NCBI GenBank assembly: GCA_007693395.1
Contig: REDS01000079.1
Coordinates: forward strand, 1-44,066
DNA length: 44,066 nucleotides
Source of the DNA: Balneolaceae bacterium
Lineage (GTDB): Bacteria; Bacteroidota; Rhodothermia; Balneolales; Balneolaceae
Reading direction: 5' to 3'
Shown here: one piece after another, positions 12,515-16,622 of the stretch
Layout: each line of letters begins with the position of its first letter
Position numbering within the stretch: position 1 is the first letter of the stretch
Made by a program: the position numbers and the translations under genes
The notes under the pieces: model-generated
The model's input: only the letters and a program-made list of their open reading frames with translations
Database searches by the model: none
Told to the model about the DNA's origin: nothing

Positions 12515-12597
12515 AACTTAGCTGTATTTACTTGATAGAATGTATATACGGTAAGATGATCAAAAACAATGATTAATAAAAGTTTAGAAATAAAAAT

Positions 12598-12606
12598 GGG
12601 GGGGGG
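12598..12606. repeat. G9 homopolymer in divergent promoter region
   Basis: Nine consecutive G occur 84 nt upstream of the GLUG gene start and about 100 nt upstream of the CotH gene start. Long G-runs are rare in a genome of this composition and are classical sites of slipped-strand mispairing. A length change here could alter promoter spacing. Confidence 0.6.
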
Positions 12607-12638: not shown

Positions 12639-12647
12639 TTTTTTTTT
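12639..12647. repeat. T9 homopolymer
   Basis: Nine T lie between the G9 run and the CotH start, 56 nt before the candidate ATG at 12703. It is the second of three homopolymers in this divergent region. Confidence 0.5.
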
Positions 12648-12747
12648 GGAAAGAGAGCAGAATAATTCACTATATTCAGAAAAAAGTTTAATCATTCTCC
12701 AAATGAGTGCGCAGATACGCCCGTTAACGTCATTCATACCCCTTCTG

Positions 12748-12758
12748 TTTTTTTTTTT
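12748..12758. repeat. T11 homopolymer inside CotH signal-peptide codons
   Basis: Eleven T sit in the hydrophobic core of the predicted signal peptide. With 11 T, the frame from ATG 12703 stops at a TGA shortly after position 12795. With 9 or 12 T it would join the main CotH frame exactly. The reverse-strand reading confirms 11 residues in the run. Confidence 0.75.
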
Positions 12759-12806
12759 GGATTTCAAACGCTCCAATCAAATGCTCAGTCCATCCATCTG
12801 AATGAG

Positions 12807-15800
12807 GTGATGGCATCGAATAACAGCACCATTGCTGATGAAGATGGTAATTTTGAAGACTGGATAGAGATCTACAACTCCGGTGATGAACCTGTGAACC
12901 TCTCCGGATTTGGCCTTTCGGATGATTACGGGAACCCTTTCCGATGGGCTTTCCCGGATACATCCATCGCTCCGGGAGAATTTATGTTGATCTGGGCGTC
13001 CAACAAAAACCGAGCTGTGCCGGGAGCCCCGCTTCATACCAATTTTGCGATATCCTCATCCGGCGAAGAGGTAATTCTCACAGATCTCGATGGCACCCGT
13101 CTCGATGAGCTGGAACCCACAGAAATTCCCACAGATATATCATTGGGTCGTCAGCCCGATGGCACCGGTAACTGGGTATACTTTAATGAACCTACACCAG
13201 GAGCTCCCAATACCACCCAACCACTCGAGGATATTCTCGAGCCCGCGCAGTTCTCACATCAGCCGGGCTTTTACAGCAGCTCATTTTTACTTGAACTCTC
13301 CCATCCCGAAGAGGGAGTAAGACTTCACTATACGCTGGATGGATCCAAACCCACAACAGATTCACCCGTTTACGTGCAACCCATCCAGATTCAGGACCGC
13401 TCTTCTGAACCGAATGATATTTCCACTATCCCAACCACAAATGTAACCGACTGGAGGCGCTTCAGGCCGCCGCCACGGGGAATCAACAAAGGGAATAGCG
13501 TACGTGTGCTTGCAGTGAAGAACGGGTATGAACCATCAATTAGCACAGGCACCTTTTTTGTTTTTCCTGAAGGTGCGAATACCCACAGCCTCGCTGTGAT
13601 CTCCATCAATACAGAACGCGATAACCTTTTTGGGCATGAGCGGGGTATTTATGTGCCCGGGATAAATCATCAGGAAGGTATACATCATACAGGCAATTAT
13701 GCAGAACGTGGTATTGAGTGGGAAAGAGAAGCCGCATTTGAATTTTTTGATGAGTCCGGAGAGCTGAAGTTTGCCCAGAATGTTGGGCTTAGAATCCATG
13801 GAGGATTTAGCCGCAGATGGGCTCAAAAGAGTTTCAGAGTGTATGCTCGAAGTGAGTATGGAGAGAGCAGAATTAATTATCAGATATTTCCGGATCAGGA
13901 GTACGACTCTTATAACCGTCTGCTTTTACGAAATTCAGGCAACGATTTTGCGCGCACCACACTACGGGATGCAGTTGCGCACAGGCTGGTGCGCCATTTG
14001 AGTTTTGATACACAAGCATACAGGCCGGCGGTGGTTTACATAAACGGAGAATATTGGGGAATAAAGAATATTCGCGAACGGTATGATCGCCACTACCTTG
14101 CGCGCAAACACGGTGTAGACCCCGACAGGGTAGACATTTTAACCGGGCGGTGGGATATAAAAGAGGGCGATAATGACGCCTACGCTTCCTTATGGTATAT
14201 CCTGAGAAACCACAGCATGGCCGATCCTGAACGCTTTCAGGTGGTGTCAGACCGTATGGATATCGATAACTTTCTCGACTACTACAGCGCTCAAACCTAC
14301 TTCGTAAATACAGACTGGCCACATAACAATATCGATTATTGGCGGGTGAGGCAGGCGTTGGAACCAGATGCACCCGCACCACACGATGGGCGTTTCCGCT
14401 GGCTGTTTTTTGATATTGACTTCACCTTCAGGCTGGTAAGAAACGAAAGCTTCGACATGCTGAACTGGCTAACCAGGAGAGAAAATTTCAATGGTGCAGA
14501 ATGGCCAAACCATTTTTTGCGAAATCTGCTTGAAAACGATGGCTTTAAAAACGATTACATCAACCGAATGGCAGACCATCTGAATACTGCCTTTAAACCG
14601 GAGCGTGTGCTAACTATTGTTGAAGAGATGAAGAGCGTAATTGAACCGGAGATGCCAAGGCATAGCCAAAGGTGGATATTTCCGCGAAACATGAATGAGT
14701 GGGAGCAGCTGCTGGATGATATCAGAGGATTTGCGGCAAACAGGCCGGCTCATCTTCGCCAAAATATCATCAGCCATTTTAATCTGAGTTCAGCTTCTGA
14801 CATTACAGTTGACGTGAATAACTACCAGATGGGCAGAATCAAACTTAACTCTATCTCTATCAGTTCGGATACCCCGGGCATTGAAGGAGAGCCCTATCCC
14901 TGGAGCGGCACCTATTTTGCAGGTGTTCCCGTCAAGCTGATGGCTGAACCCGCGGAAGGGTTTATCTTTTCACATTGGGATGTAGATGGCGAGATCCATT
15001 ACTCAGAAACCCTGGAAATTGATCCGGCAAGCGCAGATCAAATAACCGCACATTTTGCCACAACTGAAATAGAAGATATTGTCCCTTTCACTCTTTCTGA
15101 GAACTACTATCTATTTGCAAGCTGGGAATCGGGCGAGGATGCCGGCAGCTACCCTCAGTCGATGTTTTTTGTTTACATGGATGATGCAGATCCCGGACTG
15201 ACTGCATCCATTTCAGGTGTTACATCAGGTGCATTCGATTTTAGTTCGCGAACCCGCATCAATGGCCTGGGGGATGATGGCTTTTCGTTTATCAACACCA
15301 CCAACCCCGATGGTAACCCGGGCTATCCCGGAACACGCCTTGGAGGAGCCATTTTAGTGCTGGATACTCAGAATATACCGGGTGCAGAAGTGGCGTGGGA
15401 AGCGGGTACGGTTACTCCAAATTCACGAATTTACAATTTGAGATTGCAATATCGGGTTGGCAGTGACGGGGAGTTTAAGGATATAACAGACAGCGATGGA
15501 AACCCGGTTGAGTACCTCCGTAATGAAGAAGAGGGGCATACTGAATTTATAGATCCGGTAACTCTTCCTGAAGATGCCATTGGCCAGCCACGAGTAGAAC
15601 TTTTATGGCGATATTATTTTACAGGTGTGCAGCTCAACCCGGAGAGCAATCAGCGTTCTGAGCTAAACATCTCCACTATTCATGTTGCTGCAGTGCCAGA
15701 AACAATCCAGCCGGTGGCGCATAATCTTCGTGAAGGATCCTACGAGTTCACATTCTGGGCGGATGACGCAGAGGCCGGAACCGCGCCTCCGTCTATGGCA

Positions 15801-16622
15801 TTTGCCTATATGAATCTTGCCGAACCGGGGCTTGATGCATCCATTTTGGGGTATACCACCGGTGCATTTGATCTTGATTCACGAACCCGTGTGAACGGGC
15901 TGGGCGATGCCGGCTTTTCATTTATCAATACTGCGAACCTTGAGGGGAATCCCGGCTATCCCGGACGGCGTCTTGGCGGTGCTGTACTGGCACTCAATAC
16001 AGAAGGCCAGGGTTCGGTTGAAGTGAGCTGGACCGCAGGAACCGTACTTGCCAATTCCCGCGTTTACAATTTACGGCTGCAGTATCGTACTTCGGTAGAT
16101 GAGCCATTCCGGGATGTAACCGACATGAACGGCAATCCGGTTGAATATCGACGAAATGAATTTGATGGGCATACTCTGGCCATTGACCCTGTAGTTCTTC
16201 CCGGAGATGCGGATGATCAGCCGTATGTTCAGCTTTTCTGGCGATACTACTTCACCGGCGAGAGGGTGGATGAGGACAGCGGTCAGCGTTCGCAACTTAA
16301 CATTTCAAATATCAGGGTTTCATCACAACCGCTGCTTGGCGGCGAACCGGGAGTTCCTCAGGAGTTTCGACTCTATCAAAACTATCCCAATCCGTTTTAT
16401 CCGCGAACCACCATTCGCTACGATCTGCCCACAGCACAGCAAGTGCGCATAGATCTCTATACCATTACCGGCCGCCATGTTGCCACTCTGGAAAACCGGC
16501 AGGCAAACCAGGGTCGCCATAGTGTTGATGTGGATGCAACCTCTCTTGCAAGTGGTATTTATATCTACCGGTTTGTTTCAGATGATTATACAGAATCGGG
16601 CAGGATGAGTGTTATAAAATAA
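12807..16622 (+). CDS. T9SS-secreted CotH/lamin-tail protein, N-terminus frameshifted
   Basis: The open frame from GTG 12807 gives 1271 residues, but this start cuts off the beginning of the lamin-tail domain. The real start is probably ATG 12703, which encodes a signal peptide (MSAQIRPL, hydrophobic Phe-rich core, SNAQ cleavage site) joined to the main frame only if the T11 run gains one T or loses two. Using 12807 numbering, domains are lamin tail (1-130), chitobiase-like beta domain (about 145-250), CotH kinase-like domain (about 260-660, with DWPHNN at 503-508 and FFDIDFTF at 534-541), an InlB-like repeat (about 670-750), two tandem ~200-residue repeats (about 762-950 and 960-1165) and a type A T9SS sorting domain from about 1185 (YQNYPNPF). 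CotH proteins can phosphorylate secreted proteins; the substrate is unknown. The protein should be exported and surface-attached. Confidence 0.85.
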   Translation: MMASNNSTIADEDGNFEDWIEIYNSGDEPVNLSGFGLSDDYGNPFRWAFPDTSIAPGEFMLIWASNKNRAVPGAPLHTNFAISSSGEEVILTDLDGTRLDELEPTEIPTDISLGRQPDGTGNWVYFNEPTPGAPNTTQPLEDILEPAQFSHQPGFYSSSFLLELSHPEEGVRLHYTLDGSKPTTDSPVYVQPIQIQDRSSEPNDISTIPTTNVTDWRRFRPPPRGINKGNSVRVLAVKNGYEPSISTGTFFVFPEGANTHSLAVISINTERDNLFGHERGIYVPGINHQEGIHHTGNYAERGIEWEREAAFEFFDESGELKFAQNVGLRIHGGFSRRWAQKSFRVYARSEYGESRINYQIFPDQEYDSYNRLLLRNSGNDFARTTLRDAVAHRLVRHLSFDTQAYRPAVVYINGEYWGIKNIRERYDRHYLARKHGVDPDRVDILTGRWDIKEGDNDAYASLWYILRNHSMADPERFQVVSDRMDIDNFLDYYSAQTYFVNTDWPHNNIDYWRVRQALEPDAPAPHDGRFRWLFFDIDFTFRLVRNESFDMLNWLTRRENFNGAEWPNHFLRNLLENDGFKNDYINRMADHLNTAFKPERVLTIVEEMKSVIEPEMPRHSQRWIFPRNMNEWEQLLDDIRGFAANRPAHLRQNIISHFNLSSASDITVDVNNYQMGRIKLNSISISSDTPGIEGEPYPWSGTYFAGVPVKLMAEPAEGFIFSHWDVDGEIHYSETLEIDPASADQITAHFATTEIEDIVPFTLSENYYLFASWESGEDAGSYPQSMFFVYMDDADPGLTASISGVTSGAFDFSSRTRINGLGDDGFSFINTTNPDGNPGYPGTRLGGAILVLDTQNIPGAEVAWEAGTVTPNSRIYNLRLQYRVGSDGEFKDITDSDGNPVEYLRNEEEGHTEFIDPVTLPEDAIGQPRVELLWRYYFTGVQLNPESNQRSELNISTIHVAAVPETIQPVAHNLREGSYEFTFWADDAEAGTAPPSMAFAYMNLAEPGLDASILGYTTGAFDLDSRTRVNGLGDAGFSFINTANLEGNPGYPGRRLGGAVLALNTEGQGSVEVSWTAGTVLANSRVYNLRLQYRTSVDEPFRDVTDMNGNPVEYRRNEFDGHTLAIDPVVLPGDADDQPYVQLFWRYYFTGERVDEDSGQRSQLNISNIRVSSQPLLGGEPGVPQEFRLYQNYPNPFYPRTTIRYDLPTAQQVRIDLYTITGRHVATLENRQANQGRHSVDVDATSLASGIYIYRFVSDDYTESGRMSVIK

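Follow-up and report, generated by a model that had tools for sequence, protein, structure and literature searches.

An eleven-T run breaks the signal-peptide frame of a CotH/lamin-tail protein gene in a Balneolaceae bacterium and is probably of unreliable or drifting length

The 44,066-nucleotide stretch of Balneolaceae DNA analyzed here (the window) carries a gene for a protein with a lamin-tail domain (LTD), a CotH kinase domain and a C-terminal T9SS sorting domain, in which a run of T places the first half of the signal peptide in a different reading frame from the rest of the protein. An earlier note on this DNA proposed that the run is a phase-variable switch for secretion, with a sequencing or assembly error as the plain alternative. 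The question raised by this locus is therefore whether the T run is an evolved switch, or a run of unreliable length in an otherwise normal gene for an exported protein.

The run was read as exactly 11 T, as the note had stated. Translation from ATG 12703 gives MSAQIRPLTSFIPLLFFFLDFKRSNQMLSPSI and reaches a TGA 96 nt after the start, against an earlier figure of about 95 nt. The long frame in which the remainder of the protein is read (12807-16622, 1271 aa) has GTG 12807 as its earliest listed start codon and, as had been claimed, begins inside the first domain when no shift takes place. Although this frame is open for 31 codons upstream of 12759, neither these codons nor the remainder of the frame upstream of GTG 12807 contains an ATG, GTG or TTG, ruling out the conserved alternative start, with a signal peptide and without a shift, that the note had raised. 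Addition of one T yields MSAQIRPLTSFIPLLFFFFGFQTLQSNAQ, which runs directly into SIHLNEVMAS in the lamin-tail frame, and a run of 9 T also rejoins the frames, the peptide being MSAQIRPLTSFIPLLFFFFGFQTLQSNAQ minus one F; both lengths named in the note thus join the signal peptide to the lamin-tail domain. The length of the tract decides the reading frame of the gene, as it does in contingency genes, and as assembled the gene has no in-frame N-terminal signal peptide.

Table 1. Features at the start of the LTD-CotH-T9SS gene and in the protein it encodes (window positions)
Feature	Position	Strand	Remark
Poly-G tract (G9), 97 nt upstream of the CotH ATG	12598..12606	+	three-species alignment
Conserved promoter-like stretch TTG-N22-TATATTCAG	12646..12679	+	three-species alignment, by eye, tentative
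Native ATG start with first half of signal peptide (MSAQIRPLTSFIPLLFFF...), frame differs from rest	12703..12758	+	
T11 homopolymer	12748..12758	+	frames joined by 12 or 9 T
LTD-CotH-T9SS protein portion read in other frame, 1287 codons	12759..16622	+	
Lamin tail domain (PF00932)	12777..13115	+	Pfam
TGA ending the ATG 12703 frame	12799..12801	+	
GTG, earliest listed start codon of long frame, within lamin-tail domain	12807..12809	+	
CotH kinase domain (PF08757)	13788..14756	+	Pfam
T9SS C-terminal sorting domain (PF18962, Por_Secre_tail)	16383..16595	+	Pfam

The T9SS sorting domain reported earlier was recovered as a Por_Secre_tail match, so that the gene combines the three domains (LTD, CotH and Por_Secre_tail) of a T9SS-exported CotH/LTD protein. 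The genome also holds the T9SS translocon gene sprA, recognized by a SprA_N match, and an exported CotH/LTD protein is therefore expected.

Comparison with relatives identifies the start of the gene. In the sister species G013, the nearest relative in the genus, the protein is 89% identical and the gene (L018) has the same ATG, an MSAQIRP start and the signal peptide MSAQIRPVTSFTSLLFLLFFGFQTYHINAQSVHLNEVMAS, all in one frame. Because the same ATG opens an in-frame signal peptide in this species, ATG 12703 is, on the alignment, the native start, in line with the suggestion that it begins a signal peptide. The tract region in G013 is CTATTCCTACTGTTTTTTGG, with six T only; the span from ATG to GGA measures 60 nt in G013 and 56 nt in the window (4 nt shorter), and with 12 T the window distance would be 3 nt shorter than in G013, with the frame kept. 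In a further relative (G007, 74%) the signal peptide is in frame and the T run is absent. Across the family, 80 of 85 N-termini have an in-frame start and a hydrophobic core by a crude signal-peptide-like test, crude in that L361, counted among the 80, is actually broken; no poly-T break was seen in L133, L139, L146 or L150, which fail the test.

The same comparison reveals selection on the protein. Over 1091 codons compared between the window and G013, dS is 0.96, dN 0.069 and dN/dS 0.071, and the changes assigned to the two branches are similar (synonymous and replacement changes number 97 and 20 on the window branch, 99 and 13 on the G013 branch). No further disruption was found in the 1287 codons of the CotH gene. 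The low ratio indicates strong purifying selection and, together with the similar branch changes and the lack of other disruption, makes a dead gene unlikely unless the event was very recent. Since the start is in frame in G013 and purifying selection is strong, this appears to be a functional gene bearing a single homopolymer frameshift.

We then compared the T11 with other long A/T runs. The 3.56 Mb assembly contains seven A/T runs of at least 11, two of which touch coding sequence. One is the T11 of the CotH gene, which falls exactly where relatives encode an in-frame signal peptide, and the other is an A12 near the 3' end of the phosphofructokinase gene pfkA (G000:C208:51507-51518; L015 1501-1512). 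As assembled, pfkA ends in GKKKNRFRSC, whereas relatives end in GKIKKIDFDLVELSKVLR, and residues near-identical to GKIKKIDFDLVELSKVLR are found one frame off in the window's genome. Both coding runs of at least 11 in this assembly are thus out of frame (n = 2). Phase variation of pfkA is implausible, which makes a general cause likelier than a switch. Among 93 tracts of 9-10 bases, about 30 are located deep within long open frames, where no mid-gene frame-break signature was seen; this rules out a long-read type of error throughout the assembly.

Over the 28 genomes of the genus, 86 A/T runs of at least 11 were found. Across loci L279-L358, 21 of the 86 are no more than 120 nt from a contig end. 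With roughly 6,650 contigs totaling 98.7 Mb, our own arithmetic gives an expectation of about 1.4, and the excess is thus about 15-fold; the contig-end runs are mainly of 14-19 bases, with some of 11. This excess demonstrates that assemblers fail at long A/T runs and that run lengths are poorly resolved in these assemblies. Conversely, of the mid-gene runs of 11-17 in the other genomes of the genus, about 9 are in frame and 1 is a clear break (T16), so assembled lengths are often right. In G016:C463 (L331 1103), a T16 has an open frame of about 150 codons on either side, both on one strand, in a methyltransferase-like gene with a probable homopolymer frameshift. An A11 run (L350) was at first taken for a break and was excluded under a stricter rule. 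The genome collections compared hold one genome per species, and a pattern scan of viral_contigs for conspecific copies of the site gave 0 matches.

Taken together, we consider it probable that the frame break arises from a T run particular to this lineage and of unreliable length, in a normal gene for an exported protein, and not from an evolved switch. The CotH/lamin-tail protein would be normal and exported, starting at ATG 12703, and the run would either have been miscounted by the assembly, which is probably short-read, or its length would have drifted by a base within the population that was sampled. The exported protein would come directly from cells whose run has 12 T. If the 11-T template is genuine, slippage of RNA polymerase on it would still yield some mRNA in the right frame, and the break would be tolerated thanks to in-frame templates or transcripts, whose existence we infer. 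Such recovery has a precedent in an 11-A run that restores frame at 20-25% through transcriptional slippage (PMC4256274). The pfkA break, the unbroken frames at coding runs of 9-10, the in-frame peptides of G013 and G007, the low dN/dS, the contig-end excess, the 80 of 85 N-termini and comparable breaks in core genes of Blochmannia (PMC3017870) are in favor of miscount or drift. Against it, most mid-gene long coding runs in the other genomes keep the frame, and the window's own genome supplies two cases. A miscount in particular is opposed by the run length, as 11 T is below the range above 14 bases in which Illumina errors are said to be worst (PMC8808543), and by a second family case. The LTD-CotH paralogue in G012:C83 (L361 1350-1430) reads ATGAATAACAAACCGATTTTTTTTTACTGC, with nine T and a latent signal peptide whose frame is off by one base, and becomes MNNKPIFFTALFLLCLSVQIAGINAQNLHLNE on removal of one T; its T9 is too short for a likely miscall. 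No close orthologue was found to polarize this change, which modestly backs the occurrence of real signal-peptide frame breaks in Phe-rich leaders.

Selected phase variation, in which replication slippage at the T run would switch cells between exporting and not exporting the CotH protein in the manner of Campylobacter and Neisseria contingency genes, is unlikely. It would fit the position of the run within the signal peptide, restoration of the frame by one base, a surface-type protein with a T9SS tail, a gene maintained under selection and the paralogue in G012, but the tract is not kept in the two nearest orthologues, long T runs are absent from most signal peptides of the family, those of T8-9 are mostly in frame, and pfkA has the same kind of break. 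Miscount or drift is judged likelier than an evolved switch because G013 reads in frame and pfkA is off in the same way. The proposal first made for this locus is retained in part: ATG 12703 is the native start, its signal peptide is off by one base, and a run of 11 T has sufficient length for slippage in replication or transcription. The T counts of the relatives do not indicate a maintained tract, and a dedicated switch is left without support. A likeness to Campylobacter Cj1295 (PMC3068675) extends to a tract length that sets the frame of a cell-surface-linked gene; tracts of that type are known to vary, whereas the tract in the window is known from one assembled length and is not conserved.

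It is similarly improbable that a fixed, genuine T11 is rescued by transcriptional slippage, such that a minority of mRNAs would encode the exported form and expression would merely be lowered. The run is above the slippage threshold of at least nine A/T, taken from PMC1088944, with the restored frame one base away, and a large proportion of bacterial genomes show selection against A/T runs of about nine or more (PMC1088944). The frame downstream is intact and constrained, and there is no stem-loop for ribosomal frameshifting, as folding downstream was no better than that of shuffles (z = 0.13 and 0.40). Against this, mis-transcription would also affect the roughly 30 coding runs of 9-10 that stand in frame in this genome. 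The length matches the proven A11 site of Citrobacter rodentium tssM1 (PMC4256274), which likewise has an eleven-base A/T run, a frame one base off and intact coding sequence beyond; that run, however, is a poly-A toward the 3' end of a gene of the T6SS and was proven by mass spectrometry, whereas ours is a candidate poly-T site in a signal peptide. Blochmannia and Buchnera provide a further parallel (PMC3017870), with core genes, housekeeping genes included, that are frameshifted by a single homopolymer indel and otherwise constrained; the Blochmannia genes broken by poly-A/T indels are otherwise intact. Those are finished genomes of very AT-rich endosymbionts, whereas the assembly here is a draft from a lineage not known as symbiotic.

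Upstream of the gene, a second homopolymer is conserved. The aligned poly-G tract is G9 in the window, G11 in G013 and G9 in G007, constant in position and different in length, and it is kept though synonymous sites are near or past saturation. Runs of at least nine G are scarce, with six in the window's genome, two in G013 and four in G007. The tract goes with the CotH gene, since it is retained in G013 although the divergent GLUG-type neighbor is absent there and the upstream gene is a TPR-protein homologue. Between the poly-G and the ATG, all three species have, by eye, the promoter-like TTG-N22-TATATTtAG, which we take to resemble the Bacteroidota promoter consensus. An ATG lies immediately before the poly-G (12596-12606); in G013 (G11, L018 1330) it opens a frame into the CotH gene, and in the window and G007 the frame ends after a few codons. 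A motif around the poly-G shared throughout the genus was considered and set aside, as AAAAATGGGGGG is scattered in 15 of the 28 genus genomes.

The alignment suggests that the poly-G tract is a better candidate for a switch than the T run, possibly acting at the promoter level. Poly-G promoter switching is known for Treponema pallidum tprL (PMC7864442), an outer-membrane protein gene preceded by a tract of 7-11 G, most often 9, to which the G9/G11/G9 series is similar. For tprL the effect of length on transcription was measured, whereas here there is only cross-species conservation with a length difference, and, unlike in tprL, the poly-G sits upstream of the presumed promoter. That the CotH/T9SS locus is under slipped-strand control at two levels, with a conserved promoter-proximal poly-G and a T run of this lineage gating the signal peptide, seems very doubtful.

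A recent loss of export, whether as an early pseudogene or as a cytosolic protein made from GTG 12807, is less probable still. As assembled, GTG 12807 alone opens the long frame, but the dN/dS and the otherwise undisrupted codons speak against such a loss, the window branch is just slightly richer in replacements than that of G013, and relatives do not start inside the lamin-tail domain. Programmed -1 ribosomal frameshifting is ruled out, as the slippery heptamer T TTT TTG at 12753-12759 has no downstream structure.

These results bear on how such proteins are annotated, as gene callers would start this one at GTG 12807, without its signal peptide, and a secreted protein would be labeled cytosolic; the case shows how relatives reveal a signal peptide that is lost from annotation. 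Real variation, if shown by read data, would point to slipped-strand switching of T9SS cargo in bacteria other than pathogens.
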